Positions 12,734-53,222 of a stretch of 64,000 nt of DNA are shown here, in pieces; positions within the stretch are counted from its first letter, which is position 1, and the number at the start of each line of letters is the position of its first letter. The stretch is from Amphiura filiformis (lineage: Eukaryota; Echinodermata; Ophiuroidea; Amphilepidida; Amphiuridae), in contig NC_092628.1 of the NCBI RefSeq assembly GCF_039555335.1, positions 65,489,292-65,553,291 on the forward strand. Reading direction: 5' to 3'. The notes beneath the pieces were generated by a model. The model was not told the DNA's origin, did not search any database, and saw nothing but the letters and a program-made list of their open reading frames with translations. Position numbers and translations under genes: made by a program.

Positions 12734-15700
12734 TCAACTATTAGATGGAGTGGGAACATCAGGTGCTGTTGCTGTTGATTTTAACTCCCTCTCAAACAAG
12801 ATGATGAGTTCACAATGCTTTGTGTGTGGAAATAAATCAACTGGTACTGCCTTCACGGGCCAGAATGGTAAACCTTTGTGTTTGTTGGATGTTGGCCTGC
12901 ACAAACTGCAATGATAACAAAAATAGAAATACAAACGTTTTTCATCAAATTTCAAAATGATAAAGTTGTTGTTTTCAAAACCAAAGATTGTAGCGAATTA
13001 ATTTAAGATTACCAAAATGTCTATATTTAAATAAAATATAAAGCAGGTTTTGAAGGAAATTGAGTGACTTTGTTTTACGCATGTTTGGAAGGAAATTGAG
13101 TGACTTTGTTTTTAACCATATCTTTTTTTAAAGATATGGTTCAATGTAGATATTTATACTTATTTGGGATTTTTTTTCAAAACTGGGTGATTTTCCCAAA
13201 TTCACTTCCTTTCCAAACATGCAACTTTTCATACATTTTTTCATTGTTAGCAATGCATATTGACATCAATCATAGTTCATATTCCATGGTCCCACTAATA
13301 GCTTGTGGCTTTGAATGTCATTGTATTTTCTTAGGATGCTTCTTTAAGATTTAAGTAAAGTTCTTGGTCATGTTGGACATGTAAAAGCCACAATCGTGAA
13401 CACATTTTGGAAAATCAACCAGTTCTGATAAAGACAACTCTCCAGTTAAAAAATAGAATAAAATTTGAACTGAGCTTCAAAGTTATGAATTATTATAATT
13501 AAAATAATTAAAATATTGGAATTAAGATTGAAGAGGATACTTACTCAATAAAGTTGACAATGGCATTGTGTGGGTTGCAGGACACATATACCAATCTCCT
13601 TAAATTATCACATCTCCTGATTGCCTGCAACACCTTAAAAGCTGTAACATAATTATAGAAACACAATGGATAAGCATCCTGAAACTGGGTACACTATGAG
13701 TCACATGTTGAAAAGCAAACACTTTTCTTTAAGGGTGGTCTTAACCCTGGAATTATGGAAACTTTCGGGCTTCATAGCTGCTAAATTATTAGTCTAAAGA
13801 ATATAAAAGTATACATTTTTAGACTGGAAATGACTTGCTGAATTCATCTGTGAGGTCCAATTTGGGCCAAAATGCTCATTTTTGGAGAAAATCCAAAAAA
13901 ACAGGTTTTTTGCCCCAAATTTTTTCGTGCATGCAACGTAACAAAAAAATTGTTTGGCCAAAAAAAGTTGCACCAAAAATGGTAAAAAAATGCAAAATTT
14001 TCAAAAAAATCATAAAAAAGCCTGATTTTCACCCAAATTTCAAATATTTTTGGTGAAGTTGGTCAAAATTCAAAAAAATGAAAAAACGGTCCCTAGATAT
14101 TTTTATCTAGTTTTTAAAAATTAATAAAAAAATTTTTTTGGCCAAACAATTTTTTTTTGTTACGTTACCGAAAAATTTGGGCCAAAAACCGCTTTGGGGA
14201 TTTTCTCCAAAATGAGCATTTTGGCCCAAATTGGACCTCACAGATGAATTCATCAAGTCATTTCCAGTCTACAAATGTATACTTTTATATTCTTTAGACT
14301 AATAATTTAGCAGTTATGAGGCCCAAAAGTTTTCATAATTCCAGGGTTCAGACCAACCTTAAGTAAATTCCTTAGATAAGTGCATGCTCTCTGACCTAAA
14401 AAAAAAAATATGCACTCGCATTTAGTAGGATGCTAATTTTTTAAGAATTCTGAAAATAACTTCATAACCTGAAGCCAAAAGCTGAAGAGTATGAGATCCC
14501 AAATTTGCCATCTCGACAGTCAAATTTCAGTTATCAGCATGTAGACTGATATTGGACTCTGTCAAATTGACATAAGCTGAAAAAGTTATCTTTTCAGTGT
14601 CTGGGTAGTGGGTAGAGATTTCAGGTATTTTAATGAAACACTGCATGGCATGCTTTTACCAAGGTGTACAGAGCACCATAAGTCGCAAACCACCATGTTT
14701 CCAATTCAATATATAAACAGTGAATTAAGGAACATATATATTTGAGCAGTTACAAAATATGGCAGGTCTTTGCAAATTTTAATCAGCATTGTGTTTGTCC
14801 CCTGGATGTTACACACTGATGTATTTGACCTGTCCAGACCCGTCCAGGTATTTAAAAAAAAAATTTAAACAAAAGTTTGCCAAAAAATAATTTGCTTGTC
14901 ACTTGTTTTGTATTTTTGTTGTTTTTTTGTTTGCTCTTACCAACAATTCTTACTTCACAATGTTGGGGATTTCTTAGCTTCAACATCTCCGATTTGCACA
15001 ACTCCTAGATTTAAATACCCTATTCATAAGCACCTTACCCAGTTTTTCTTAAACAATCCTTATGACCATCATTTATTCCCGTTCAAATTGATAACATATT
15101 TCATTCCAAATCTCCAGATAAGAACTTACTTTCAAAACAACAAAACAAAAAATTCTGGTGACACACATCTCAGATCAAATAATTTGTTATGCAATACATA
15201 CCTAATCCTGCCCTGGGTGGATCCACTATGCCTATCACATCTTTACAATCTTTCAAGTTATTAGTTATGCTTGGCAACACCTCCTCTGCTTTCCCACGGG
15301 AGTAAGTCACATTTGTTAAACCTTGAAGGAATAAGAAATAGCATTGGCTTCTATTAGATGTGTGTGGGTTACCATTAAAGTAACCTTTAAGTAAAGTTTA
15401 ATAACATTAATTGAAAAGAACATGATGTTGACTTTGAGTGTGTGGTGGGGGGAGAGGGGGGAGAGGGGTGAGATGTTGGATTGTGCTTTTGTAAAAATTA
15501 ATTGGGGACACACACATGAGAAAATGCTGTTCAATAGGGACACAAGTACTGCATATGCCCAGGTGAAGATGTCCACAGTTGCTGGACTGTGTTGGTAAAA
15601 TGCAAATAACATAAAAGCTTTTTAAACAATGTTTGCAGACGGGAGTAGAGGTCCATTCTGCACTGGCACAGTAAAAACACTGTAGAGTCTGCAAATATAA

Positions 15701-18700
15701 CTTATGTGTGTCTGCAGTTAGGTGAATAAAACTCAAAAGTGAGGTATAATTGCTGTCTCTTTGCCAGGGTTATGTGTGTGTAGGGTGTGTGTTTGTAATC
15801 ACCATCAATGACGGCCACACAAATGAGAAAACATAGTGTGGCAATAGACACATGGGAACCGCTGTCATCCATGCTGGAGACAATATATCTCAAATATCAA
15901 ATAGCATTAAAACACTGTAAATAGAGTATGTCCAGCACATTCTGGGAGATACTGAAAAGATGCTGCAGCCAAATAAAATTGTTTCACTTGCCCAAGATCG
16001 CAATAATTGGAGAAATGTGTGATGCGATCAAGCAAAATCTGTCGGAACTCATAAATATTAAATTTTCAGTTTCTTATAGGATAGTGAATAGCATTTGCAA
16101 AGCTGCATTTTGCAAAAAACTCCATTGAAATTGAACAACCAGTTCCAAAGATATGAGCAATTGAAGAGTTTCCAAAACAACAGGAAACAAAAGGAAATTA
16201 TTGCCTTTGTTTGGCTATATCTGAAAATCAATATTTCCGAGTTCTGACTGATTTTGCTTGATCGCATCACATATGTACATGTAATTATAAAGAAATTTCA
16301 CAAGTGACAATTTTAGGTCAGTGTTGTGTTGTTCTGTGTGAGATGGCAGCTACATGTACTTACCATTAGCCTCTGCATTGAAGACGGCATCATTAATGGC
16401 TTGCTGGTTTACCTCTATGCCAATCACTTTATTCACTTGCTGTAGACAGAAAAAAACACACACAAGCAATAAACACCATTGTCAAAGTTCGTCCGATACC
16501 AATATTTTTATAGATATCTTAAAAATCACACCTATTTTGGACAATCAAATGTTACAATTACAGTTACTACTTTGATAAAGGTTACTGTACCTTTGCCAGA
16601 GATATTCCTATGGTTCCTGTACCACAGCAGATGTCTAACACTGTACTCGTCTCATTGACTTCAGCAAATTCTGCTACAGTCTTGTAGAGAACCTCTGCTG
16701 CTTTACTGTTAACTGGAAGATAAATGACATAATGATATCATACTGTACATTTCTAATGTTGATCTTGTTTTCACTTGAGCTCAGTAAATTAGACTAGAAT
16801 GTTGTAAAGATCTCTACTGCTTTCTCTATACTCTTCATATGCATATTAAACAAACACCTTTGAATGGTGTATAGTGTGTCACACAGATGTGACTGCCTTG
16901 CAGTGATCTCCTGGCTATTTGTGAACAGGTATGTACTACATCAAATCCCTGATTGACAATTGATGCTAACTTTGTTGTTGGGTTGTTTTCTATCAAGTGT
17001 GCCAAGGCCTGTGTGTTTGTTTACATGCCAACTGGCTGGTAGCCATTGATAGCTTGCTCAATGAAAGTATATCATACGCAGGAAGAAGAATCTTGGTCAA
17101 CGATTAAGTTACCATGATAGGAATTGCTTTATCTCGTATGGAGGTAACTTGATTTTTGACCAAGATTCTGCTCGCTGCATGTCATAAGGTAAGTGTTCCT
17201 ATCAGGCTTGCAACATTCATGGATTATCTGTCCAACTAGTGCCAAAAACAAACAAACATTGTAATCCCTATATGCAAATGATGTGTGAATGTTGAATCCA
17301 TCTTGTCAGCACTTAGTTCACTAAATAGTTGACTGTTGCATGCCAACTGTACAAGCATTTGAGAAATTTAGTTTGTTTCAGATTTCACCGACTAGACTCA
17401 CAGTGTAAACTTACCTTGAAAGAATGCATCTGGAGATATTCTGAATGAGAGTCCCAGAATGTTTTCAGTAATATGAGGCTGACCAAAGATGAGATCATAC
17501 TGCTGACTTGAATCATCATCTCTACTGAAATATAACATAACATAACATAACATAAGACAGTATGAATCACTGCTATCATGATAAGAAGAGGCTGTATCAA
17601 TAACATATGACTACTTTATCTTTGTATGCTCATATACACCATTCAAAATCAAAATCAGACAATTAGGAAAACAAGGTGCAGTGGGCCTATTTTTGCAGTA
17701 AGCTAGGGGGTACAAATGGTGGACAAAACATATTTGGCACTTCATAATATGACAGTAATATGAAAAAAGTGTTTGCAATTTCTCGGCACTACTTTTGGAC
17801 AAATTGACACTTGGCAACATAAACATAGATCTCTTACACAAGACATATCCCATGCTTGATCATGTCTTTCATACAGATTTGTGTTCAGGTTAAACATTTA
17901 CGCTTGTGTTAGCATTGATAACCCGGAATAATAAACTGAGCCATCCATAAATAAATGGCAACTCTCTTTGGACAACTTTGATTTGAAAAGGTGTATGGTT
18001 TATGTTTTATTCCTGACTTGGTATTATTATGGTCTTTTGAGACAAAAAATCTGATTTTCGCTGAATTTTTCGGGAAAAAAAAAATTTAAATAAAAAAAAA
18101 AATCTGCATTTCTTTTTTTTCAAATCGTGCAATTTTACAAATGCGCGCATGAGCTTTGAGACAAACATTTTTTTTTTGCTTTAGCAGCTTAATCTACTTA
18201 CCTTGATGATGACGTCTGTTGATGTAGAAATAAAGAGGACACTGCTGCTTGTTTACCATCTCCTGATTGGAAGAAATCACTCAACTGTTGTTTCTCTTTC
18301 ACTATTTCATCCTGAAAGATTTCAACAAATCAACCAACTCAATTATGTTATAACATTGCAATTGGCATCATTAGAAAAGGATTTCGAAAAATAAACCAAC
18401 TCAAATGTGATAATATTAAAATTGGCATCATAAGGAAGGCTTTGAAAACAAAATATCAAGTTCATTGAATAAGGATGATTATATATGGGGCAACCTTGTG
18501 TGTGTTATGTTGTATGTACTTCAACTTATTGCTTGTATCTTGTGTGATAAATATATACGATCTGACAAAAAATGTGAAATATGCCGGCGATATATAAAGG
18601 TATCACACAGAAACTACAATGGGTTGGCATGACTCCATAGTACTAGTCATTGTACCTACTTGTGTTAACTGATGTGGATGCATGACAACAATGCCCAGTA

Positions 18701-21700
18701 TATCACCCGTGCTATTGGTTCTCACAGTCAGCATACGCCAATGTCCATGGTGTGTGACAGGATCAAATCCTGACAACTTGGACACGTCTCGGATGTATTG
18801 CTGAAAACACTTGACTACATTCTTGGTAGCATTGGATAAATGTAGACAGTTGGATGGTTCAACCACTGATATCTGACCTCCTGTTGGGAACAAATGTATA
18901 CACAGTTGGGTGATGAACACATTATTATAAACAGTTTGTCTACATATAAACATAACATATTCACTCAATATCAGCCCCTTGCCGCCATTGCTTTTCTCAA
19001 CAGCAGGACAGCGGCAGGAATCATTCAATTACCAGAAGACACTAACTCTTTGGTTTGATCTGATGGACAACTGGCTCAATGAACTTGTGGTTGTTCGCCG
19101 AGGCATTCAAAGCGAGGACAAGATATAATTTTTTACTTTTTACATTCAAAGTGACAACCTTCACAACCTTACCAACTCACTTACCCTTATAACTGCCTAA
19201 CCTAAAGCCAACTGTTTTCTCTGTATAAAACAACATAAAAAAATTAGAAATAGTCAATTCAAATAAACCAGTTCTTGTATACCAGTGCAAAAACATTTCG
19301 AAATCAAAAATTAAGGTTACTTCTGTTATACCCTTTTTAGATTCTTGACACTTCATTGGAGGAATACAAATCATATGACATAAAATACTTTTCTAATTCT
19401 ACTGTTATCTAATGTTCCTTCACGATGTATTTTCTTTCCTCACCTTTGCCTCCCATTAAAAACTACATTTTTCCTCCTGTAGATTAGATTGTTTTAAGTT
19501 GCATCACTGAATGACTTCCACCGTACATTCAATATGTGTATTTGGGGGATATTCCCTAACCCTTCACCACACACATAACATAGGAGTACTTGCTTCTAAT
19601 ATTAAATCCATCAAATTTTTATTTTGTTATACTTTACTCAACATGCTGAAATAATATTAGTAAACTGTCAGGAAAGGATTCTGTCTATTTTATTAAGCAG
19701 AAATGCCAAGGTAATGTGAAAGAAATTCCACTTGCAATGTTGGATGTTTAACATGGAGTTCTATGGGGACTTCATGTCTGAATATGACATGACAAAATTG
19801 CTCTGTTAACCTGACAACCACAATGTATTTGGCTGTTTCCATTTATGTGTAAGTTAGGACACATATAAACATTACAAATGTGCCAAAAAGTGGGGTTTGA
19901 ACAAAATGAACCAGTTTCATATTATAAGATCGTACATTATTACATTAGGGGTTGAAAACAACAACATATCACTATCAAAATTAAGATAGGAAAAAAGTGT
20001 TTCTAAACAAAATATTTTGCCTAACTACACCACCAAATGATCAAAATTTAATAAGCAAAATAGCCAATTTGATCATAATATCTCATAAATAACTTACTTG
20101 ATCTATAAGTGTATACTATTATCCTCATGTCAACTGCTAGCGTACATAGGTTAACCATTGATTCACAATTGGACAGCCTCATTCACACAATAAAAGAAAT
20201 CTCTGGCATTACTTTATCCTATCTTCATTTTGATGTCAGATTTTGTTTTTATCAGATTGCTTTCAAGTTTGCCATTAGTTTGCTTCAAATTCACTAGTAC
20301 CATTGTGCTTCTTCCTAAAAATGATTTTGATCTGGTTTGGCAAATCACTGATATTCCCTTGAAGAGAAAGTCTTGTTGATAGCACTCATGAATAGAATTA
20401 AACAACAAACACAAAAACAAGCGTATCAAATTTTCATTTAATATTCATGTACACACCTTCTCCACTTGGGCTGATTCCAATGGTGAACTCACATTTATTA
20501 CGATATCCATCAACCACAGGCTGGCAGGGAAAACAACAACATATCACAGTCAATGTTACACATAAAAGCACATTTCTCTTATCATATGTTGATCATCACA
20601 CTTGTAACAGCTTTATGTAATATATCTTAACATACGCTTGGTACAACACCATAATTGATGAGTTATATATGCAACTTACCGATGGCTTGATATCTTCTAG
20701 TGGACAACACATATTACCATGCTTTTCCCTAAAAATGCAAATAAACAGATGAAAAATACAACTTCTATATTGCATGTATAAGGAATTTGAACACCTGTTT
20801 CACTATACAAAGAACCCTTTATCACAAACAATAAAAGGCAGACAGAATAGGAATTAGAATCAATAGTATCATTCTTCATGTTAAAATAACATTTGAAAAC
20901 ATAAAAATTAAATGATGTTTATGTTCAAGTTTTGTTGCGATTATTCTACTGGTCTGTTATCTTTTTCATCCATGGTTATTCCTTTCACTAGCAAGTAAGT
21001 ATATCTTAGTAAGATTTGGTGTTAGAAGTTAATGGCTGGATATGATTTTGTTGTAGATCAAATAACAAAATGTATCAACACACATGTATGCCATTTGAGG
21101 CCATGCATGACAAACAAAAAAACAGCAAATGCATTGATATATGTCATTTGAACATCAACAAAATCACATCAAATCATTAACCTAATTCATAAACGTCATA
21201 AAATGAAGCTTAAACTGCCTTATAAAAAGCTAAAAATCCTGATATCAAAAGCAAAGATATTTCTCGCCAGTGGCCAAAAAACATCACCTTCAACTGAAGT
21301 GACCTGTGGTAGGCCTGTGCACTAACAGATATCAGTTGAAATCCATTCACCCCCCTCCCCCATGAAAGACATGGCCTTTATCTTCCACACAAGAGGTGTA
21401 CATTTTAAATGGGTTACCTGGATGGGTCACGCCATTTGAAATCTACACCCCCTGTGTGGAAGATAAAGGTCATGTCTTGCACAGGGAGTGTATGGATTTC
21501 AACTGGAATAGCCCATTGCTATAAAGGTCATGTCTTGCACAGGGGGTGTATGGATTTCAACTGGAATAGCCCATTGCTATAAAGGTCATGTCTTGCACAG
21601 GGGGTGTATGGATTTCAAATGGAATAGCCCATTGCCAGCAAATATTGGTTCTCTAACATCATTAAATTTAAGGACTTTCACAATGAAAGTACTAATATAC

Positions 21701-24700
21701 CCATCACATTCAGCTGATATAACAAAGAATACTTACGGTATCCAAGATGGATTCCTTATCATCAATGTCTTAGATCCAATTTGTTCTTTTGTTCTTCTGG
21801 TGAGGAATTTGAGGAATTCAACCATGCTAGTATGCTTGCTCTTTAGTTGTTCTGCATAGGTCTGTCGCCATAGCGATGTTACTGCATCGTTCAATCTACA
21901 AACAAAGAATTTAGCTTTAACTTTCATACACAGGTAACAATCTTTGTCAATTTAGAGTGTTTGGTAGCAAATTTGGTACAAATTGGAGCTAACAAAATTC
22001 TACACACGACCTTATCAATCAAATTGTCATAAAAAGATCAGGTTTTGGTGTAGCACTGGCTACATAACTGTGGACTTTCTTTATTTGAGGTGTTTATTAC
22101 ATGTACACAAACACCTGAGGTTCACACCTCTGGTCAAAACTTAGAAATTAGTGGTATTCATTGATACATATCCATTACGGTGGCACAGAGGTTCTCATCA
22201 GACAGACAATTGTTACTCTGGTTAGCCATGCAAGGTGTCCCACAATAAAGGTGCTATACTTTGATCAGCTCATAATCGGCGGGAAATGTTAGCCTTTTAT
22301 CACTACGCCGAAAAATAGATCCACATTAAGAGTAATATATAGTTGACCTGTCTGGTCTATATTGTGTGTGGTAAATAAAATAGGCAAAGTATAGGACTTT
22401 AATTAATAATTTGTGATACTTCTGACGAGTTGTCACAAGACAATTCTCGAAAGAAAACATATTGATATTAATCCGCAATGTAATAAGGCCCGCCGATTAA
22501 GAGCTGATCAAACTGTAAGATATTCACTATACCTTTTTTTCCATTCCTACATTTTATTTCAATAATTAATCAATAATTAAAAGAACAAATTTTAATAAAC
22601 GTTGAAAAAAAGCTCTTCTCCAACGTGCCTCTTTAGCTCAGTATTTGGGGTTTTTTTTAAAGATTTTTTTTCAACGTTTATGTGCACTGGCTACTCTGGG
22701 TAAAGATTAAAATTGGTTCATCCTATTAACCCAGAGAACTAAGTATAGTAATTTTCAATTCACATAAAAATATCTAAATATGCACTACAATATCAAGCCA
22801 TATCATACCTATGTTCTGCTGGCATGTCTGATTCTTTGCGTTTCTTAGCATCAGTCTCTGGCCCTTCTTCTTGCTTCCTTTTCAATGCACTCTTTGCCAT
22901 GGGATCTGCTACTGGTTTGGCTGGCTGGAAAAACAACATCAACACAAAATCATCTTAAATATCATCTCTGTAGACTATCCTGCTTGCAAATGTTCTAATA
23001 TGTTAAGCAAAATACTGTATAAATTAGGGTTTTTGCACCGTTTGTTTTTTATGGAAATTCAGTTTTGATGCCATTTACACTTGCATATTTTGTTGGTTCA
23101 CTTGAACATACTTACATTCACAGGAATTAAATATTGCACATTCAAAATAACTTGATCATATTATGATCCTCCTCCTGCAAGTCTCTGTTTGCCTTTCACT
23201 GTGCAGACATGCATTTATACATAATGTTTGTTTAATTAAATTGCCTTAATTGACCAGATTGCTTTGTCATCAATCAACACACAAAAATATGATCTATTAA
23301 AAACATAACTTCCCTCTTATTCAAATGTGAAATGTGTAAAATTGTAATGATATGGCAAGTAAGCTCTGCACATCTCTTTAAGCTAAGGCTTCTAGATATA
23401 TGTACAGTTAGCTTAATTGCCCAGTACTCACCACTGCATTCAGCACACTCTTTTTCCATGTATATCCATCCAATACTTTCAAGGCTTTTTGTTTGTCCTC
23501 CTCACAGCTTTGAGACAAAACATATTGTTTTACATAGATATTACAATGAGGGACTTATCATTTCTTCATATCAAAGCAGTGCAATCAAAATGAATATTTT
23601 ATAAAATATTATGATTGACAATTTTGTAAACTCAGATTTGCATAATGAAATGTAACTTTTAGCTCCTTCTTCTGAGGCAGTTTCAAATGTGAAGAAAACA
23701 ATTATCTACAGTAACATCTCCTTTATATTACATTTATGACCTGCTACCACGAAATCCGCCATAAGTCGCTGTGACTTTATACTCATTTTGTTGAGTTTCA
23801 AGATTTTGGGTCTGACCAAGTCTTTGTTTGACATCCTTTGTGAATTGGGGCAAAATGGGCCATTCACTAAGGATAATACTACTGGGTTGTACAGGTGCAC
23901 GTCAAACAAAGAACATCAACTTAGACTGAATATCTTGAAACTACCTACTCAATGAAATGAGTAAAAAGTCGCGGCGACTTATGGAGGATTTCGTGGTAGC
24001 AGGTCACATTTGTACACAGTTTGATGTGTTTTAGGATATTGTTTGGTAGGTATGACTATGCGTTATAAAAGGAATGATACAAAGTTGTGTGCAGTATGTA
24101 AACTGTTTGTTTGCAGTGTCCTGACCATTTCTATTGCTGCCCCCTCTTTGAATGAATAACCCACTAGTACCCAGAGAGAAAACAACATCACCACCTTGCA
24201 ATGCCTTCTTAAACCTCACCTCTTCTCTTTGTCTGTTCTTCAGTTGTCTTCTTTTCTGTCCTTGGGTCTACTTTGTAAAAAAGCATTTTATAAATCCCAT
24301 TTTTTATGTTTAGTGACTTAGTGGGCATAAAGAACAAACTTACTTGAAAGTAACAAACCCAAAGTTTCCATTTCTTCCCTTCATTGCCTTCAACTTCTTT
24401 GGGTTCAACTGCAGCTTAACAAGCATTTTCTTCAATTGCTGTGGAAATAATATAGTGTTATCACCAATTATCATCACTGTCAACTTCAACTTAATCTCAC
24501 TTGTTCCCCTCCATATAGGTGTATAATGGGAGCTGTTACATGTAGTCAAACAAATGGCAAGTGCCATTGTTTTTAGCAGCCCAATTGTGTGATATATCCT
24601 AGTGGCAGTGGATTAAATGTTAAGTGCTTTGAGCAATTTGAAAAGGTACTATTTATGCCAACATGATTTTCAGTACAACTCTGGTATACCCTGCGCACCC

Positions 24701-25405
24701 TGTGATTTAGGGAATAGGTTAGGGTTAGGATTAGGGTTAGGATTAAAATTAGGGTGGGTTAGTATTACGGTTAGGGTTATACTTGCGTACTTGTGCGCAG
24801 GGTATTCCAGAACTATTCCAATTTGTTTCTTGAAATTTCAATACAGGTTTGTGCTTCAAAAAGTGCTTTTTTAATGTGATAACATGGAAGTACATTTAGA
24901 TATTGCAACTTGATTTACTACAGCAGAAAGTCTGCAATGTTCATCATTAACAGATTTCTTTTTTATAAACAGAACGTTACTATAGATTATAACAAAACAG
25001 AAACAAAAGGATCAATTCAAAACAAAACAAGAAACTTACACTGAATCCAAAGTATCGGGGAAGATTTTTAATTTCAATCTTAAAAATTTCCGATGTGAAT
25101 TCTTCTCCCTTGGTGTAATGATATGGATCTGTGACTGGTTCACTGGCAGATTCACCTTTGACCTCAGCGTCCTCAGTAGATGTTGATGGTTCACTCTCCA
25201 CATTAGATGCTTCACTTTGAGAGATTGGTGGTGGTTTCGCTTCATCACTTTGAGAGATTGGTTGTGGTTTCGTTTCATCACGTTGACAGGCTGAGGCTGG
25301 CGATTTCACTTCACCCTCCACACCATTTCCACTGGAATTTTCCCCTGTATTTACTTCATCACCTACATCTTGATTTTTGTTCAAATCTGCGCTGGAATCA
25401 GCCAT
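12734..25405 (-). CDS. TRMT2A: tRNA (uracil-5-)-methyltransferase homolog A, complete
   Basis: Makes 5-methyluridine at position 54 of tRNA using S-adenosylmethionine. Sixteen coding exons, transcription order: 25040-25405, 24344-24438, 23432-23507, 22809-22924, 21737-21895, 20680-20728, 20457-20520, 19185-19220, 18660-18880, 18202-18311, 17415-17524, 16591-16712, 16364-16439, 15202-15321, 13545-13641, 12734-12905. All have GT-AG borders and compatible phases, total 1989 bases, 662 residues. Residues 1-100 are acidic and Ser/Pro-rich with a duplicated ISQSDEAKP-type unit. An RRM follows at about 105-180 (IKNLPRYFGF, GNFGFVTF), then a basic linker (KRKQEE, KKRK). The methyltransferase half shows YRNKCEF, FRISPDAFFQ, SAM motif I DICCGTGTIG (494-503), DPPRAGL (567-573), YVSCNP with the likely nucleophile Cys595, and HCE with the likely base Glu638. 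Length is close to the human protein (625). Confidence 0.96.
13733..14358. mobile_element. 626-bp TTAA-flanked foldback element
   Basis: TTAA at 13729-13732 and 14359-14362. Left end GGGTGGTCTTAACCCTGG pairs with right end CCAGGGTTCAGACCAACC (two mismatches). Complementarity runs on for well over 100 bases per arm (AATTATTAGTCTAAAGAATA against TATTCTTTAGACTAATAATT). The centre is A/T homopolymer-rich. It lies in the last TRMT2A intron. A decayed relative seems present at about 27010-27130. Confidence 0.85.
16014..16275. mobile_element. Foldback MITE in TRMT2A intron
   Basis: Left ATGTGTGATGCGATCAAGCA pairs with right TGCTTGATCGCATCACATAT with two changes; pairing continues through AAATCTG and CGGAACTC / GAGTTCTG. 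No target duplication was resolved. Lies between the exons at 15202-15321 and 16364-16439. Confidence 0.65.
17080..17182. repeat. About 100-bp imperfect hairpin in TRMT2A intron
   Basis: GCAGGAAGAAGAATCTTGGT and GGTAACTTG...ACCAAGATTCTGCTCGC are inverted halves around a short loop. Could be a MITE remnant. Confidence 0.5.
19605..19960. repeat. Dispersed repeat family, copy 1 (TRMT2A intron)
   Basis: Alignable in the same orientation to 58085-58420. Shared blocks include ATGCTGAAATAATA, CAGTTCTATGGG-like text, GGCTGTTTCCATTTATGTG-like text, AAACATTACAAAT and AAGATCGTACATTAT. Identity is moderate with many indels, so the copies are old. No end structure is obvious. Confidence 0.65.
21463..21636 (+). 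repeat. Three tandem 58-bp units
   Basis: Units start at 21463, 21521 and 21579, each opening ATAAAGGTCATGTCTTGCAC and closing GAATAGCCCATTGC. Units differ by one or two bases, so the duplication is recent. Reverse-complement relatives of the unit lie just upstream (about 21320-21390, GAAATCCATTCACCCCC...), suggesting an inverted-repeat element whose right arm expanded. It sits in the TRMT2A intron before the exon at 21737. Confidence 0.85.
22258..22513. mobile_element. MITE with TTTGATCAGCTC ends
   Basis: Left TTTGATCAGCTCATAATCGG and right CCGATTAAGAGCTGATCAAA are inverted repeats with one mismatch, followed inward by CGGG/CCCG. Lies in a TRMT2A intron. Confidence 0.7.
23735..24008. mobile_element. 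Palindromic MITE, family 1, copy 2
   Basis: Ends TATGACCTGCTACCACGAAA and TTTCGTGGTAGCAGGTCACA match the element at 12382-12588, and the interiors share CAAAGAACATCAACTTAG and AAATGAGT-AAAGTCGCGG. This copy carries about 70 extra internal bases. It lies in the TRMT2A intron between the exons at 23432-23507 and 24344-24438. Confidence 0.85.
24681..24810. mobile_element. 130-bp MITE carrying degenerate telomere repeats
   Basis: Ends CTGGTATACCCTGCGCAC and GTGCGCAGGGTATTCCAG pair with one mismatch; AACT flanks both sides. The core (about 24716-24778) is a run of TTAGGG and variants such as TTAGGA. It lies in the first coding intron of TRMT2A. Confidence 0.7.
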
Positions 25406-25430
25406 GTTTTGTGATGATCAGAGGAAATAT
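25406..25430 (-). other. TRMT2A: TRMT2A 5'UTR segment with upstream splice acceptor
   Basis: On the minus strand the 25 bases before the ATG are preceded by a T-rich tract ending TTTGTGTGTAG (acceptor AG at 25431-25432). The start context ACAAAACATGGC is good. This suggests that the first coding exon is not the first exon and that an untranslated exon plus the promoter lie at higher coordinates, toward RANBP1. Confidence 0.55.
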
Positions 25431-25608
25431 CTACACACAAAAAAGGAAAAGAAACAAGTATAAAACATTAATCTGTCCCATATGTCAGGCAAACAAGACT
25501 TTGATATATTAGCCATACACTGAAATTTATTTCAAATGTTGAAAGGAAAAATCAATTACTCTTTCACTTTATATCAAAATAAAATCTTAAAACTCCTAAT
25601 TATATTAA

Positions 25609-25944
25609 AGGAGGATTTCGTGATCCTAGCATCCTCCTTTTATGACATTTTTCAGTAGATATCCACGAAAAAAGCTTATTTCCAAAATTTCAGTTAATTC
25701 CGATTTTGCGTCTGTGAGTTATGCATGATTATGTGTATTACACTGAGCGACAATGTGTTGTAATTTCGTTCTGGTGCACCAGAACGAAATTCAAATTTGG
25801 CGATATTTTTGCTAAACGAATTAATCTGCAAGAAATATTTGGTAAATAAACATTATGTAGCCAGAGGTGGTATCCAGTGGTGTAAAAATCTCAACTTTTT
25901 TTGGGAAAAGTGGGGGATGAGGCTGTGGATCACGAAATGCCCCT
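25609..25944. mobile_element. TTAA-flanked MITE upstream of TRMT2A
   Basis: TTAA at 25605-25608 and 25945-25948. Ends AGGAGGATTTCGTGATCC and GGATCACGAAATGCCCCT pair with two mismatches. A short internal palindrome TTCGTTCTGGTGCACCAGAA-type sequence lies near 25770. It probably lies in the TRMT2A 5'UTR intron. Confidence 0.8.
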
Positions 25945-26178
25945 TTAATACATGTATGTGTCTATCTGGAGAAATGCAGAACTTTTAAATTAAGAAGACA
26001 TCGTTACATACTGAAATATGAGTGAGTCAAAGATACATGGTGAGCTCCATTCACTATTACTTGGTTCTATGATATCATTGTCTAGCTTAAAATTGATCTC
26101 ATTATTTGATATGTTTAATTTTCAATGGATTGACTCTGTAAGGATGCTGCTTGATGATTGGTTTTGTATCACTAACAT

Positions 26179-26456
26179 CTACAATCCCCGAAATATGTCC
26201 TTGAAACGCTTTAGGCATCTTGAATGAAATCAATAGTGTATTTTTAATGTGGATAAAAATGTTGAATATTTGGAATTAGAAGAAAGCTGGGCCATCAATT
26301 AACACTTTTCCCTTCCCCACCCCCATCATTCAATGTTGCGACACTTTGGAGACACGCTGAACACATTTGCACGTTTCAACATTGCACGGGGAGTGGGGGG
26401 ACTTATTTTCCCCTAAAGACGCTTTAATGTTTCAAGACATATTTCGGGGATTGTAG
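26179..26456. mobile_element. MITE with CTACAATCCCCGAAATATGT ends
   Basis: CTACAATCCCCGAAATATGT at the left and ACATATTTCGGGGATTGTAG at the right are exact inverted repeats of 20 bases. Pairing resumes at TTGAAAC/GTTTCAA. The centre is C- and G-rich. Confidence 0.75.
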
Positions 26457-26513
26457 GTCTAGGAGATATTTTCTGATTTGGCTTTCCTACTACTTAGCAA
26501 GTGTGACATGTGG

Positions 26514-27595
26514 CTAAACGATAGTGCAAAAAGTTTACCTTTTGCTTGCATTTTATATTCGACTTATCTTGTCACAAAAATCGTGCAATATTGTTAAAAG
26601 TGAACTCTGAGAAATCGATGTTTTAGTAAAAAAATGTCAAAATTATGCACAAAACGTCCTTATATTTTAAAACGGTAAGGCTTTCACGCTTGTAAAAGCT
26701 GTATCTGGTGCATGGTCTAAATATGCATCTTTTTGCACCAATGAATCTATAATGTCTCCTTTCAGTATCTCAAAAGTGAGATATCATATACCATGAAAAC
26801 AAACAAATATATTATTTTGTTCATGTGGAATATAATCTCTAAGCTTGGAAGTGATAAACTTATCAAGAATTATCAAGACATGTTTTGCAATTTTCAGAAA
26901 CATCTTTTCAGCGAGTGGTCCACTAGAAATGTCTCGGAATTCTTTCATGAGTTTTCTTAAGGCCAGAATAATGGGAGAGAACATGGACCTTTTCGAGCAT
27001 CATTATTTCTGAATTGTATGTCCAAAGTATATAAAACTATACATTTTTAGAAAGGAAATGAGTCAGATTTGTTCAAAAATATTGAGTTTTTTACCCCAAT
27101 TTTTTTGTGACAACTTAGAAAAAAATCCATTCGGAGTAAAAACAATTCAGTTAGCTTTTCATGAAGAGACATGAACTTAAGGAAGGTATTTTTATTTTTT
27201 TGAAAATATTGAAAATAAACATGTGAAAAAAGCAATTTTGTCACTCTATTAAGCTAAAAATATTGGACATAATGCTGTATATTTTTGTTTAAAACAAATA
27301 TTTTAAAAAAATGAGAAAACCTTCCCAAGACTTTGATGTACTCTAAACGATAGTGCAAAAAGTTTACCTTTTGCTTGCATTTTATTCGAGTTATCTTGTC
27401 ACAAAAATCGTGCAATATTGTTAAAAGTGAACTCTGAGAAATCGACGTTTTAGTAAAAAAATGTCAAAATTATCCACAAAATGTCTTATATTTTAAAACG
27501 GTAAGGCTTTCACCCTTGTAAAAGCTGTATCTGGTGCATGGTCTAAATATGCATCTTTTTGCACCAATCTATAATGTCTGCTTTCAATGCTCAAA
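26514..27595 (+). repeat. Direct duplication, about 255-bp units
   Basis: 26514-26775 and 27343-27595 are near-identical direct repeats opening CTAAACGATAGTGCAAAAAG and closing with TTTTTGCACCAAT and CTCAAAA. They differ by a few substitutions and small deletions. The 567 bases between them include a decayed relative of the 13733-14358 element. Confidence 0.85.
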
Positions 27596-33210: not shown

Positions 33211-34585
33211 GGGAATAACCCAAAAGTTCGATGAAGTCCTATTAACGAAAGTCCTTCCATTAGGGAGGAAGGGGAGTCGAAAAGTCAGATTACGTTTGTA
33301 AAAAAAAGTTGTAAAACATCGGTCAAAGATGATCTTTTTTAAGGATTTAATATATAGTTTTAAAATTCTAGTATTTTATTGAAATTTTACAGTGGTTGCT
33401 TCAAAATAATTTTAAATCAATATAGTGTGCAGTACTCGCAACCTGCAACTTGTAAGTTAATTTTGTAAGCAGCTGTGCCGCACTTTGATTCTTTTTTATT
33501 TGAAAATCCAGCAAGTCCTAATTAATTTTTTTGTGCCAAAAAAGGTAGAAGGAAGAAAATATTTAAAAATAAAATAGAATATTTGTTTCTTCCATAAACG
33601 TTAGGGTGCATCAAGTGCCCCTCATTTCAACCATATTTTTTGCTCCTAGTGTCAAACTGTGCCATTTAACTAGAAATCATCCCCTCCAAATTTAAATTCA
33701 ATCGGAGGTCGGGAAGGGGGTCCACCGTGAGCTTAAAGTTCGGACAGAGGCAACCAGTAAAAGTCCGGCCAGCAGCTATTGTATTATGTATACAGTTATA
33801 CACACACATTAATAGCTGCCTTTAGTGAAAGTTTTTATAGTACTTCAAATCTCAGACAATACTCAATAAAATGCAAATCCATTTGAACTAATCAAAAAGG
33901 CAGCTATTTTCAGACATATCTGAAGTCATAATAATAGCTGCCATGTGCATGTTTCTCTATTAACAGCCGTTTCTGCATGGAAAATGGGTCCATCGCGCAC
34001 TACAAGTTTGTGCATGGTAGGTGCTTTTAACATTATTATTATGACTTCAAATATGTTTGAAAATAGCTGCCTTTTTGCTTAGTTCAAATCGATTTGCTTT
34101 TTATTGAGTATTGTCTGAGATATGAAGTAATATAAAATCTTTCCCTAAAGGCAGCTATTAACCTGTATAACTGTATACATAATACAATAGCTGCCGGCCA
34201 AACTTTTCCTGGTTGCCTCTGTCCGAACATTAAGCTCACGGTGGACCCCCTTCACGACCTCCGATTGAATTTAAATTTGGAGGAGATGATTTTCTAGTTA
34301 AATGGCACAGTTTGACACTAGGAGCAAAAAATATGGTTGAAATGAGGGGCACTTGATGCACCCTAATAAACGTGATCAATATCCTAGCATTGTCGCACTG
34401 TAGAAAATAAATTTCTACAGTCCATGGTCGCACCTCCATCCACCATAGCGACGGCACTGTATCCTATGAATACAGGTTGGATTGTTAGATATTTGACACA
34501 TACGTAAGAGGGGAGGGTGGAGGGGTTAGCGTTTTAGCGAAAGGACTTTCGTTTATAGACTTCATCAAACTTTTGGATTGTTCCC
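33211..34585. mobile_element. Inverted-repeat element containing the 764-bp palindrome
   Basis: GGGAATAACCCAAAAGTT at the left pairs with AACTTTTGGATTGTTCCC-like text at the right (AAACTTTTGGATTGTTCCC), followed by GATGAAGTC/GACTTCATC and GAAAGTCCTT/AAGGACTTTC. TAA occurs just outside both ends. Confidence 0.75.
33602..34365. mobile_element. 764-bp near-perfect palindrome, hAT-like
   Basis: Flanked by an exact 8-bp duplication ATAAACGT (33594-33601 and 34366-34373). Ends TAGGGTGCATCAAGTGCCCC and GGGGCACTTGATGCACCCTA are exact inverted repeats. Complementarity extends almost to the centre near 33985 with scattered mismatches (for example AATAGCTGCC recurs in both senses in each arm). No coding capacity. 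Confidence 0.9.
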
Positions 34586-40852: not shown

Positions 40853-43800
40853 ATGACATATATGGAAGTGAGAGTATGATGACACATATATTAAAAACTT
40901 AATTTTGTTAGTTTATTTGTTAGTTTGTTTGTTTGAATGCATTTTACGTAGGCCTACATATAATACCTTTTGGACTCCGTAAGATTGTACAACGAGAATC
41001 CATTTACGGGAATCCATGGACTCTCGCAAAACTCTCTTGCGAGAATCCACTTGGACTCCTGTGGCACTTTACGAAATTCCACCCCTGCATGACCATCACT
41101 GTCATGACTGTTAATGTTATGTTTTACTTTACCCTAACACCCATAATTACCACAAAATACCACGATGAAAACCACTGCGCATGCATGAATCACACGACAT
41201 GTGTGATGTGTCTATAGCTAAAATAATAGTTTCTTGTGTGGGGATTATGCACTTTCAGTTTCCCACATGTGTGAATGGGAATTGGATTGCGCACTTTCTC
41301 AATGTTTAGCAGTCTATAATATCGAATTGATTAATTAGAATTAAACAATTCATTAATGTTAGCACTGGGTGGTAGCCATTACTGCCAGTAGACAGGAAGT
41401 CTAGAAAGTTGACCTCAACGCTGTAGTGTAGGTGGTCTTCCTGTACTTTTGAATGGGACAGCAGTAACCTTGGGCATTTTTTAGACCAAAATTTTGGATT
41501 TTTCAGATTTTTTTCTAAGTTTGTGAGAGCATTTAACAAGACTATCCGTCGATGGATTTTTATTTCCGTCGGTAGATATTTTTTAAATTAAGTTTTTCAT
41601 AACATATTAAAAAGGCGGAGACCCCTAATGTATAATAAATTAGCTAGGTAAGTTTTGAGTAACCTTGATGAAAATTATCAAAAAAGTGCCTATTCTTTTG
41701 TATGTGTACAGTACATCACCTGTCACTTGAAAGTCTTGTAACGTGTCTAATGGCGCTGCCCATGGCCACTCGATGAATTGTTTAATTCGAATTAATCAAT
41801 TCGATATTATAGACTGTTTAGTGAGCATATTTCTCCAATATTTTGAGAAGTTGACGTCGAATTTTCTATTTTAGGCCAAGTAAAAAATAAAACATGTTTC
41901 ACGTCCTGGTTTTCAAAAAAAAAAGGAGGAAGAGGGGCTTTTTATTTTCTATTTTTTATCACAAAATTGGTGTAAATACCCATACTTAGAGCTGTTTTAG
42001 CGTACAATCCGGACATACAATAATGCCTGGAAAAAGGAGGAGGCCCTTTTTTATTTGTTGTTCTGAGAGTTACACCCCTCTAATGATCACAAAACCTTCC
42101 TAAACTGTTTATTGTATATTAGCAAGGCTATAGAAAACATCCCAACTTCCTAGACATATTTTTTGAAAAGTTATATCTGAATTTAAAAAAATAAAAATTT
42201 ATTTGAGAAAACCTCAAAAAAGGAAGCGGAGGGGACGTGAAACATGTTTATTTTTTTATTTGGCCTTATATTGTTTGGCAATAATGTCTTTTGCCAATAG
42301 TATGTTTAAGGGGGTACTACACCCCTGCCCAATTTTGTGCCTATTTTTGCATTTTTCTCAAAAATTATAGCGCATTGGGTACAATTAAGATGTGTATATT
42401 ATAGGGGCAAGGACTACAACTCAGGGTTCGATTTAGAAAATAAAATTTACATGCACAACTCGGATTTTTTCCTCAAAATGGGCTGAACAGTGTTCGATTT
42501 AGAGGGGTTTTACATGCACAAATGCATGTAACTTTGGCTCTGTGCATGTAGAATTTTGCCTGTGCATGCAAAATTTTGTGTTATTCAGCCCATTTTGAGG
42601 AAAAAATCCGAGTTGTGCATGTAAATTTTATTTTCTAAATCGAACCCTGGGGCTGAATAACACAAAATTTTGCATGCACAGGCAAAATTCTACATGCACA
42701 GAGCCAAAGTTACATGCATTTGTGCATGTAAAACCCCTCTAAATCGAACACTGCTACAACTGCTGCAATGGAAATTTTATTTCAGCACAGACAACAGTTG
42801 TGGAGTTACAGTCAAAAATGAGGGAAAACCAATATTTGATCAATAAATCAATTTCTACTTGCTTTGAGTTGCTGAATTTTCAGTACAGTAGTTGTAGTCC
42901 TTGCCCCTATAATATACATATCTTACTTGTCACCAATGTGCTATAATTTTTGAGAAAAATGCAAAAATAGGCACAAAATCGGCCAGGGGTGTAGTACCCC
43001 CTTAAAGTTGCAATTTCGTGTTTTTGATCACAATTTTGTGTTTCCCTATGTCAAGGTCATGACCCAAGAGAACGTATCCTTAATATTTAGGAAGATAATC
43101 ATGAATGGCACCGCCACATGAAATTTAGGCTTTCACCTTTTTGTTTGACAGTTGCACCTAGATTTTGTAATTTCAGGAAGAGACTGAGCAAGAGGTAATT
43201 AATTCTGTGTATTTATGTTTTCTTTTTCAGCATGAAGAACCAGGCCCAAACAGCCCTGATGTTCATTTTGAGCCTCTGGTTAAGTTAGCACCTATAGATA
43301 TTAAAACACTAGAAGAAGATGAAGAAGAATTATTCAAAATGTAAGTTGCAGTTAAATTTGGATTTTTTTTTCTCATTTGCCTCTTGCAAGACTTGCATGT
43401 GTGCCAAGCTTTTTTAAGCAGCATTACAGACATGGTGCAACATTCGTATTGGCTGGCGCCTTGTCCATTTGAATTGTGATGAAGCAGCATCCAGAGACAA
43501 TCCGGCTATTCTAGTGCGATGACCTCGTTATTTTCCACCCACTGGAAGTTAAAATTCAAATATGGTCGGAAGGAAATTCTCGCAAGCGCTACGCGCTCAT
43601 TTTCGGAAAATTTTCACAGAGTTTTGATTAATAAAACCAAACAAAACATTGAAGGTCTGGATAAATTTAAAGCTATTCTAACCCCCCTATTTGAAACAGA
43701 TTTCACAGGCAATTAATAATATCATTGTTTATTGGTTACTTGGACTTGCAGGAGGGCCAAATTATTTCGATATGACTCCTCATTAGACCCACCAGAATGG

Positions 43801-46800
43801 AAGGAAAGGGGAACCGGTGATGTGAAATTACTCAAACACAAAACTGGAGACAGTAGAATACGATTGCTAATGAGAAGAGATAAGGCGTACAAAGTCTGTG
43901 CTAATCATTATGGTAAGTTGGTATGCTCTGTTATTATGTTGCAGTTAGGCTTAGTAATTGCAAATATTTAGATTGAGGCCAAAATAGTATTTTTGTTTCA
44001 AAGGTGGGTTACCTAATAATTGACAGCCTCATCCCCTAACTTTACCCCATAAAAATGCACATAACTTGGAATATTAAATGTATGGGTGATAGGGCGCAAA
44101 GTGAAGTAGAAAACTTGATGTGTTACCTTCGGATCACACCTTAAACTTTCAACATAGAGGAAAATGTAAAGCATGCTTTGTGATAGTTGAGTCCTTAAGT
44201 GTGGGTGCACTATGTGGTTGTCGTGCCCAGTTGTTGTACAAGTTGAATATGACAACTGCACTCTGCCCATGACAACCAGTGCTGGTTTCATGCTGTCATG
44301 CTGTTTTGAAATTAAGAACATGTTCAATGGTTTAAAAAGGAGGAAGATTACAGGGGTGCTTATAATTCTATTTTTACAGAAGGGCTTATTTTTTCAATAG
44401 GTAAAAGGTTTTTTCACTTCCATAACTTCCAAATCTGCTTATTTTTTACCAATAAGTAGGGAATTATGAAGTTTATATGCCCCTGGACTGAAAAACAACA
44501 ATAATATAAGTATAACATTGATAGCGGTGAAAGCTAAATAAATGTTAAGTCTTGTGCCGGGATGATTTAAGTCGGCAACTAAAGAGTTACCATTATTCTT
44601 TGACAACAAATTGATTATTAAATGTCATTTTATGTTCACAGTTCAAACTAATATGTCATTAAAACCTAGCAGTGGGAGTGACAGAGCATGGGTATGGAAT
44701 ACTCCGGCAGATTTTGCTGATGAAGAAGCTAGACCAGAAACTCTCGCTATCAGATTTGCAAATGCTGAAAGTAAGTTTGTTTGTTTTCTTTTTGTATTTA
44801 GAGCTGCACTTTGAATAAACAGTATTGTTCCTAATAAATGCCCCCCATAATTTTTTCAATGCAAAAAGTGACCAAATTGTAGAAATTTCAATGCCATATC
44901 ATATTAAAAATGTCATTTCCTGGCTTTCAATTCATGATCGCTAAATTGCATGGAAAAACTTCCATCCAGTTCATTGCCAAATTACTGTAGAATTTCACTA
45001 AGTAAATCACATACTTGAAAAAAATGCATGTTGTTTGATCGTATTCCTGTGCAGACAGCAAGATCCCAAAGGACTTTCTCCAATGCAGCTTTTCCCTACA
45101 TTGCCAACTAATTTACCATACAATTTTCATATTAATTTTCCCAACAGATGCACAGAAATTCAAGGACAAATTTGAAGAATGTCAAAAGGCTGTAACTGGT
45201 AAGTGAACGTACTTGCATGTACCGTAACCACTTTGGTATAAGCCCACCCCTCGATGGCAGATTTCACTTCAAAATTGGGGGTGGGCTTATAACCAGGTTG
45301 AATTTAAAAATAAGAACAATCTCCCCCCATTTGTTTATGCCCAATGTAACAGGAATTTCTATCATCTATGTCAATTTCTTAAAATTAGTGTGGAATGTTA
45401 TTTATCAACTGATATTTTTTTATATTTGTTCTTAAATATGAGAGCAAAGCATTGATTTGATTCAAGAACTTGGCCAAAATTTAGTACTGGGCTTATAGCT
45501 GATTGCACCCTTGTTCCCAGAATGTTTTGAAAAAAGGGGGTGGGCTTATACCCGGGTGGTTACGGTATTTTACCATTTATATCTTGGTTATTACCATTTG
45601 AAGCAGCACTGTAAATTGTTAGTTGTACAGGTAAGCTAGGATTTCAAAATTGCCCACCCATGTGTATATGGTGGTCAGTGAATAATAGAAAATAGATCTG
45701 GACAAAAGATTTATTTTTTGGTTCGGTAGGGGATGTGCAGAGATGCCAACTCTCCCGATTTAGGCCCCCAATTTTGGCCCCCGCCTCCCGATTTTGTCCA
45801 CAAATCTGCTGATTTTTTGATATTTACATTACAATAATAAATAATTATTTTGCGTGTCTGTTACCATCTGGATTTCAATAAATAGGCATGAGAATTCCCG
45901 CTTTTTGTAATCAAAATTGACCTCTCCGAGTTCAATGTGAATCCGATGTAAAAATGGGGGGTAGGGGTGGAGGACCCTCGGGTCACACATATACACGACA
46001 AATTCATCTCTTAATCGCCCTATACACACAGCTACATGGACAAAATCTCTCTTATTCTCCCTCTGTACAGCTCTTCACAGACAAATTCATCTCAATCTCC
46101 CTTTCACACGTTCAAATTCATCTCTTAATCTCCCTCCTTTACAGAAATGCGGACGATTTCATCTCTTAGTCTCCAAACACGTGAATTCTGTAAACAACTT
46201 TCCAATCAAGATGGGATACTTCAATTAGCAGGTTGGTCAATATTTTGGGGCTATGATTATTCAATTGATTAACCAAAATTGTAAATTGTTTAATTTGACA
46301 TTACATATTAAACTCAATTCTCATTAGTCAGTATGCATTAATATTGGATGCAAAAAACATGTTGATACTGCGGTACTACTGCCTTAAAAATTTGCTATGC
46401 AAAGTTTCAAATTGCTATGGTATGGTCAAAATATTATTTGAATTCAAATGAACCTCTGAAGTGTATAAAAGCCTAGGGCTTCGGCTTTGCCCCCTCGACC
46501 CACACCCCATCTCCCACCATGGAGGACGAGAGCTCAGCTCGCTACGCTTTGCAATCCTCCCTATTTTCAAAATCTCAATGTTGGCATCTCTGGATGAGCT
46601 CCAGAAACATGGCATTTACTTTTGGAAGCTGGAAGTTTTGTTTTTTTAATTTCAATATGTTTTGCTGAACATTGAATCAAGAATAAAATGTTTTACATAC
46701 TATAATTTGATTTCCATATTGTACTATAGAAGACAGTCAAGACACAGAGAAGACGCCAAACGAAAACGGTGACAAATCTGCAGATGAAGTTGCAAAGAAA

Positions 46801-46998
46801 TTAGGTGAGATGTCTGTCAAAGAATCCCAGGACCAAGCAGAAGAGAAAAAATCGGAAACTAGTGGGGAGACAAATGGGGACAAACCAGAAGAGAAAACTG
46901 AGGAGAAAACTGATGTAAAAGAAGAAAGTGTAACAACACCAAAGAAAGATGAAGAGAGTAAAGATGGTGGTACTGAAAAGACTGAATCAAAAGATTGA
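38780..46998 (+). CDS. RANBP1: Ran-binding protein 1, complete
   Basis: Binds RanGTP and helps RanGAP release GTP during nuclear transport and spindle assembly; mainly cytoplasmic. Coding exons: 38780-38794, 43231-43340, 43752-43912, 44642-44770, 45148-45198, 46145-46231, 46730-46998; total 822 bases, 273 residues, all phases matching. The Ran-binding domain spans about residues 15-155: [32 protein letters not shown] (WKERG at 58-62), [29 protein letters not shown] and KFEECQ. The tail contains [10 protein letters not shown] (205-214), in the place of the nuclear export signal, then a long Glu/Lys-rich acidic end ([11 protein letters not shown]). The protein is longer than human RANBP1 (201) because of that tail and of exon 6 (residues 156-184). 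First intron is 4.4 kb and packed with transposons. Confidence 0.95.
39041..39623. mobile_element. TA-flanked MITE in RANBP1 intron 1
   Basis: TA at 39039-39040 and 39624-39625. Ends TAGCCAAAATAATAAATTCT and GAATTTGTTATTTTGGCTA pair with one indel, followed by CTCGATCATG / CATGATCGAG. Confidence 0.8.
40634..41086. mobile_element. hAT-like MITE with 7-8 bp target duplication
   Basis: Ends AGGGGTGGAATTTCG and CGAAATTCCACCCCT (15 of 15). GCATGAC is duplicated at 40627-40633 and 41087-41093 (8 bp if TGCATGAC is counted with a shared terminal T). The interior repeats GACTCTCGC-type words. Contains a pure (ATC)n microsatellite at about 40824-40852. Confidence 0.85.
41311..41815. mobile_element. 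MITE with AGTCTATAATATCGAATTGA ends
   Basis: AGTCTATAATATCGAATTGA and TCAATTCGATATTATAGACT are inverted repeats (19-20 bases), with pairing continuing through ATTAATT and AACAATTCAT. GTTTAG occurs just outside both ends. Confidence 0.8.
42310..43001. mobile_element. TTAA-flanked MITE hosting a nested hAT-like element
   Basis: TTAA at 42306-42309 and 43002-43005. Ends GGGGGTACTACACCCCTG and CAGGGGTGTAGTACCCCC are perfect inverted repeats over 18 bases; AAATTATAGCGCATTGG / CCAATGTGCTATAATTT continue the pairing. About 352 bases before the nested insertion. Confidence 0.9.
42422..42753. mobile_element. Nested hAT-like element with interleaved inverted repeats
   Basis: Exact 8-bp duplication CTACAACT at 42414-42421 and 42754-42761. 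Ends CAGGGTTCGATTTAG and CTAAATCGAACACTG pair with one mismatch. Internally four blocks run X, Y, X-complement, Y-complement: 42422-42487, 42488-about 42591, about 42592-42649, and about 42650-42753. Confidence 0.9.
44815..45010. mobile_element. Degenerate transposon copy related to 28320-28575
   Basis: Shares CTAATAAATGCCC, ATCGCTAAATTGCAT and TAGAATTTCACTAA with 28320-28575. It lies in RANBP1 intron 4. Confidence 0.55.
45222..45565. mobile_element. TA-flanked MITE in RANBP1 intron 5
   Basis: TA at 45220-45221 and 45566-45567. Ends CCGTAACCACTTTGGTATAA and TTATACCCGGGTGGTTACGG pair with a few mismatches, then GCCCACCCC / GGGGTGGGC. Confidence 0.85.
45739..46591. mobile_element. hAT-like element containing RANBP1 exon 6
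   Basis: Ends AGAGATGCCAAC and GTTGGCATCTCT (12 of 12). Flanked by GGATGTGC (45731-45738) and GGATGAGC (46592-46599), an 8-bp duplication with one mismatch. The interior near the right end has GAGCTCAGCTCGCTACGC. No transposase frame. Exon 46145-46231 lies inside it. Confidence 0.7.
46145..46231 (+). CDS. RANBP1: RANBP1 coding exon 6, possibly transposon-derived cassette
   Basis: 87 bases between a strong acceptor (CCTCCTTTACAG) and a weak donor (GTTGGT). It enters and leaves in phase 1, so it can be skipped without shifting the frame. It encodes 29 residues, beginning [15 protein letters not shown], with no counterpart I know in vertebrate RANBP1. Its first part (TTTCATCTCTTAGTCTCC) is a variant of a tandem unit (AAATTCATCTCTTAATCTCC) repeated about four times just upstream (45998-46134). 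Confidence 0.6.
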
Positions 46999-52660: not shown

Positions 52661-53222
52661 CAGTGTTCGAAATAAGCACTTATCCTCTTGTCCAAAAATC
52701 ACTGAGGACAACCATAATGAGCTATGTACTTACCCCTGGACAACCACTATATTTTGCATCCAAAACCATGATTTATACAAGTAAAATGAATTAAACTTGA
52801 CTTGTCATATTTGATTGTAATTTGTCTAGATGGATGGGCCACTGCTACTAGCACACAGTATTATATGCTATGTGGTAACTTGTATTACTAATTAATAATA
52901 ATTATTATTATTATTAACTTGTTCAGCATGTCCACTTCTGAATATTTTTAATTAACCATTTCACTGTGAGTTAACCAATGGTGCCAGTGCTTGAGGGAAG
53001 TTGAGATTCGCATTCATCAGAATGGTGAATTTTGAAACTTACACTGGTTTACCAATTTGTAGCTATGGATTTTCCAGAGCACAGAACATCAAACAAATTT
53101 GATTTTTTGCACTCAAAAATATGACGCATTTTGGAGACAACTGAAATGATTTGAGGACAAGGAGAATTCATACTTTAGTTGTCCTCGGGACAACCTCCAT
53201 TTTCCCCTTATTTCGAACACTG
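52661..53222. mobile_element. hAT-like MITE (CAGTGTTCGAAATAAG ends)
   Basis: CAGTGTTCGAAATAAG pairs with CTTATTTCGAACACTG exactly. CTTATGAC (52653-52660) and CATATGAC (53223-53230) form an 8-bp duplication with one mismatch. Confidence 0.85.

Follow-up and report, generated by a model that had tools for sequence, protein, structure and literature searches.

The window analyzed in this study, a 64-kb stretch (64,000 nucleotides) of Amphiura filiformis DNA with a G+C content of 35.8%, carries RANBP1 on the plus strand and TRMT2A on the minus strand in a head-to-head arrangement. In human, the same TRMT2A/RANBP1 pair is located on 22q11.2. The genes and recognized exons are as follows:

12743-25417, minus strand: TRMT2A, head to head with RANBP1
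43231-46998, plus strand: RANBP1, span of the exons recognized by homology and splice sites
43231-43340, plus strand: RANBP1 exon (homology and splice sites)
43752-43912, plus strand: RANBP1 exon (homology and splice sites)
44642-44770, plus strand: RANBP1 exon (homology and splice sites)
45148-45198, plus strand: RANBP1 exon 5, ending in phase 1 (tblastn to human RANBP1; splice sites)
46730-46998, plus strand: last RANBP1 exon (exon 7 of the first-pass annotation), carrying an export-signal-like 10-residue pattern

The Ran-binding domain of RANBP1 was identified by Pfam (PF00638, E 1.3e-50), and the C-terminal leucine-rich pattern that follows it aligns with the human C-terminus. As in the human protein, the 10-residue pattern is taken to be an export signal, which is putative here. 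The search for the first RANBP1 exon covered 25301-27500 and donors scoring at least 4, and yielded one unconvincing candidate. Elsewhere in the window, a reading frame at 1882-2229 resembles the C-terminal part of what is presumably a dynein heavy chain.

Between exon 5 and the last exon, the RANBP1 intron contains an 853-bp unit, inside which a short open stretch had been annotated as an additional exon:

45739-46591, no strand assigned: non-autonomous terminal-inverted-repeat element, hAT-like, 853 bp, in the last RANBP1 intron (inverted ends and flanking duplication)
45739-45750, plus strand: left terminal inverted repeat AGAGATGCCAAC; 13 bp if the C at 45738 is counted
46580-46591, minus strand: right terminal inverted repeat, exact reverse complement of the left; 13 bp if the G at 46592 is counted
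45731-45738, no strand assigned: left copy of the 8-bp target duplication, GGATGTGC
46592-46599, no strand assigned: right copy of the 8-bp target duplication, GGATGAGC, with one mismatch to the left copy
45752-45805, plus strand: degenerate CTCCCGATTT-like subterminal repeats at the left end, three copies, 71-81% to the first
45999-46176, plus strand: four pyrimidine-rich internal repeats like CAAATTCATCTCTTAATCTCCCT, 70-96% to the first, starting at 45999, 46082, 46113 and 46154
46145-46231, plus strand: candidate cassette exon, most likely a pseudo-exon; 87 nt (29 residues), open, phase 1/1, AG..GT

Re-measurement upheld the first-pass annotation in that exact 12-base inverted ends and an 8-bp duplication with one mismatch enclose the candidate stretch, the flanking 8-mers GGATGTGC and GGATGAGC matching at 7/8 positions outside the 12-bp ends. 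When exact, non-low-complexity 12-mers at most 2500 bp apart were sought with flanking 8-mers differing at one position at most, 100 dinucleotide-shuffled windows gave one pair in total. The same thresholds returned eight rows in the real window, which are not independent elements, several being parts of longer inverted repeats; inverted-end structures are common in this DNA. Since ends and a duplication of such quality arose only once in 100 shuffled windows, the 853-bp unit at 45739-46591 is very probably a genuine insertion, as had been proposed.

The element has no second copy detectable by blastn within the 64-kb window. Apart from the element and its internal repeats, that search returned three matches, short and weak (E 0.16-0.55), which we did not accept as copies. 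Its 12-mer end occurs at nine sites in the window when up to two mismatches are allowed, compared with 4.7 expected, a number reached in 7 of 100 shuffles. Scans for the left-end pattern in viral and prokaryote contig collections, which are poorly suited for such an element, returned nothing, and the literature retrieved for the end sequence was, by titles and abstract beginnings, not on topic. Of the four pyrimidine-rich repeats, two were recovered at three or fewer mismatches.

The superfamily of the element depends on where its ends are taken to begin. The exact inverted repeat extends one base outwards on both sides, giving 13 bp (CAGAGATGCCAAC). In this 13-bp register, the ends begin with CAG and the flanking 8-mers mismatch at 6/8 positions (2/8 match); in the 12-bp register, the ends begin with AGAG and the flanking 8-mers mismatch at 1/8. 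According to one report, Ac/Ds ends start with C/TAG and lie directly against the 8-bp duplication (PMC3260210). No single register of the 853-bp element satisfies both the C/TAG start and the 8-bp duplication. All 23 listed stop-to-stop frames of at least 25 aa over the element were scanned in Pfam, and none matched a transposase; 21 were without any family at E <=1, and the other two gave sub-cutoff hits to unrelated families (E 0.034 and 0.094). hAT membership is plausible but unproven, given that the C/TAG start and the matching duplication fall in different registers and that neither a Pfam transposase match nor a second copy in the window was obtained. "hAT-like", the label used in the first-pass annotation, is fair: the duplication size and the short ends fit it, but the C/TAG start and the duplication are not found in one register.

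It is rather unlikely, as a question separate from the use of the exon, that the insertion is real and belongs to a non-hAT superfamily that also produces 8-bp duplications. This view is favored by the AGAG start that accompanies the fitting duplication, unlike the C/TAG start given for Ac/Ds (PMC3260210), and by the loss of the duplication in the CAG register; furthermore, two other elements of the same window, at 52661-53222 (one mismatch) and 33602-34365 (exact), do fit the CAG/TAG register. Against this, a one-base coincidence would explain the register shift, and the element length, short ends, subterminal repeats and size of the duplication all fit hAT. In comparison with non-autonomous hAT elements such as maize Ds1 and hAT MITEs, the present element shares short inverted ends (here 12-13 bp), the 8-bp duplication, sub-kilobase size, subterminal repeats and the lack of a transposase match, whereas it differs in missing the C/TAG rule and the duplication in one register and in having no further copy within the window.

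The candidate at 46145-46231 is a predicted and not an observed exon. It is symmetric (phase 1/1), as previously annotated, and its 87 nt are open, so that the reading frame is kept by inclusion and skipping alike. On a consensus matrix, its acceptor scores 7.6, higher than any other acceptor of the intron, and exceeds the five acceptors of RANBP1 (6.1, 2.9, 2.6, 1.0 and -2.5) as well as the best of the acceptor candidates listed near the TRMT2A blocks (5.8). Only 4 of the 3162 forward AG sites in the window, the candidate included, score at least 7.6, and a sister acceptor at 46071 scores 6.3. The internal repeat at 46113-46135 provides the upstream part of the acceptor tract, and the repeat at 46154 sits inside the candidate itself as a 74% copy. 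The donor, CAG/GTTGGT, scores 2.8, below the four scored donors of RANBP1 (3.6, 3.9, 5.9 and 7.0). As the best donor candidates near the TRMT2A exon blocks go down to 0.7 and lower, the donor is weak for the gene and not for the window, and the earlier description of it as weak needs this restriction.

These scores bear on the possibility, tentative but to be taken seriously, that the stretch is a rare or recent transposon-derived cassette exon, through which some RANBP1 transcripts would encode 29 extra residues in the linker that joins the Ran-binding domain to the export signal. The strongest acceptor of the intron and the in-frame status of both isoforms support such use, but the donor is the weakest of the gene.

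We compared the candidate with every AG-GT pair, 40-250 nt long and on either strand, whose summed splice score reached that of the candidate (10.4). The window contains 21 such pairs, the candidate included. After removal of the candidate, of a pair involving a RANBP1 donor and of two pairs at TRMT2A exons, 17 remained. The two removed pairs at TRMT2A were:

20520-20457, minus strand: high-scoring pair at a TRMT2A exon
17478-17415, minus strand: high-scoring pair at a TRMT2A exon

Of the 17, three preserve the reading frame, and each of them is closed in all frames. Within the candidate's intron, the pair 45521-45630 (110 nt) reaches 13.2 and breaks the frame. From the lengths of the 17 pairs and the open fraction measured per length, the expected number of open pairs that keep the frame is about 0.5 per window over both strands in one fixed frame and 1.3 in any frame, where one was seen; among the 17 pairs behind the value of 0.5, donors are shared at two sites, and some pairs may be unrecognized exons. 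By the same real-sequence rate, the expectation within the last RANBP1 intron on the sense strand is about 0.006.

Shuffled sequence gave lower rates. Across 100 shuffled 64-kb strands, 3.8 pairs per strand reached the score, whereas the two real strands have 11 and 10. An open phase-1 pair was present in 6 of the 100 (0.06 per strand). With the candidate's own two scores as thresholds and phase 1 demanded, such an interval was found in 0/300 element shuffles and 0/300 intron shuffles, and the candidate ranks first by splice score among the open phase-1 intervals of 40-250 nt in the window. This rank and the rarity in shuffles again count in favor of a cassette exon, against which stands the expectation of about 0.5 such intervals per window from real pairs. 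The stretch is therefore unusual at the scale of the intron, and mildly so at that of a whole window searched for oddities. Splice scores with an open symmetric frame are weak evidence of an exon for a single candidate picked from a whole window, and transposons with pyrimidine-rich repeats provide good acceptors.

The translated forms were compared with the human protein. The form skipping the stretch aligned with human RANBP1 in one colinear block (query 10-191 of 239, 118/183 identical, 223 bits), whereas the main alignment of the form including it ended at residue 151 (103/142 identical, 213 bits). In a search of the PDB, two matches to human RANBP1 (1k5d_B) flank the stretch, namely query 7-152 to 21-165 and query 184-219 to 164-200. 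The two adjoin each other in the human protein, and the second is too weak alone (3.3 bits). The Ran-binding domain and the C-terminal export-signal region are thus shared with vertebrate RANBP1 and colinear in the skipped form, with 64% identity over 183 positions to human; the differences are a longer C-terminal tail here and the optional 29 residues, which have no human counterpart. Judged from these alignments, the gene reads as an ordinary RANBP1 without the stretch. In the literature retrieved on RANBP1 isoforms, transposable elements and TRMT2A, the titles and abstract beginnings indicated no such exon.

The coding character of the stretch was evaluated with a codon model from 694 codons of the known exons of the window, a small set that depends partly on a provisional TRMT2A sequence. 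The candidate has a log-odds of -0.45 per codon. All 61 overlapping 29-codon windows taken from the known exons, each scored by a model that excludes its own exon, lie higher (mean 0.12, lowest -0.28), as do 92% of 3000 open windows of noncoding sequence (mean -0.22). These data argue against an old coding exon and not against splicing, since a young exon would look the same. The negative codon statistics weigh against a cassette exon, but a recent exonization would likewise give poor values. The sequence MRTISSLSL within the exon was also considered as a second export signal and dropped, the pattern being present in 1849 of 4000 (46%) random open 29-codon noncoding windows.

That the stretch is an old host exon, around which the inverted ends are a coincidence or the product of later rearrangement, is most improbable. 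What speaks for it amounts to the open interval together with good splice scores. It is opposed by the single occurrence of ends with duplication in 100 shuffled windows, by the 74% copy of the element's internal repeat within the stretch, by the missing counterpart in human RANBP1, and by a codon score under that of every known-exon window.

We consider that the stretch is probably (roughly 0.62) a fortuitous pseudo-exon within a non-autonomous transposon. By this mechanism, an 853-bp cut-and-paste element, non-autonomous and probably of hAT type, would have inserted into the last RANBP1 intron, and its pyrimidine-rich internal repeats would have given rise to acceptor-like sites. One of these would, by chance, be followed 87 nt on by a mediocre donor, with the frame between them open. 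The normal RANBP1 mRNA would then join exon 5, ending at 45198, directly to the last exon, starting at 46730, and the entire element would be removed together with the intron. The ends, the duplication, the null result for a transposase and the frame compatibility of the skipped form are direct observations behind this account; from them and the foregoing comparisons, we infer that splicing does not include the stretch to a useful extent. The proposal in the first-pass annotation of a transposon-derived cassette exon in a presumably essential gene is retained as regards an open in-frame interval inside an insertion, but its use as an exon is possible and unproven.

Several findings in the literature concern the exonization of transposable elements. 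For hAT elements there is a precedent, since Ds1 is reported to give three donors and two acceptors (PMC5432752), which favors a cassette exon. On the other side, the exonization of transposable elements is reported as rare, indeed anecdotal, in the invertebrates studied, and 38-50% of exonized elements in chicken, zebrafish and Ciona are divisible by three (both from PMC2911107). As in known cassette exons of this origin (Alu exons; Ds/Ds1), an intronic element here gives acceptor-like and donor-like sites around an in-frame interval; the candidate differs in being known from sequence alone, one interval per window being not far from chance. Were it included in transcripts, the stretch would, going by PMC2911107, be among the few invertebrate-type cases in which a DNA transposon has become an in-frame exon in a core nuclear-transport gene. 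The stronger proposal, that the insertion supplied a regulated cassette exon whose longer linker tunes RANBP1 export in some cells or stages, is highly doubtful.

Other inverted-repeat structures were observed in the window. The last RANBP1 intron holds at least two, since beside the 853-bp element it contains another at 45220-45567, with 31-bp ends that are 90% complementary (TACCGTAACCAC...), starting 21 bp past exon 5; no further copy of it was found within the window. The 562-bp element at 52661-53222 has ends of canonical hAT-like form (CAGTGTTCGAAATAAG), and its 8-bp duplication carries one mismatch (CTTATGAC/CATATGAC); the 764-bp element at 33602-34365 has long inverted arms with the ends TAGGGTGCATC and an exact 8-bp duplication (ATAAACGT); both combine the two hAT characters, a C/TAG start and an adjoining 8-bp duplication. 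Upstream of the RANBP1 exon at 43231, inverted ends CAGGGTTCGATTTAG / CAGTGTTCGATTTAG are present at 42422-42753, where the flanking 8-mers on both sides are ctacaact at the outer positions (42422, 42753) and gggctgaa at the inner ones (42488, 42649), so that this is apparently one element nested in another.
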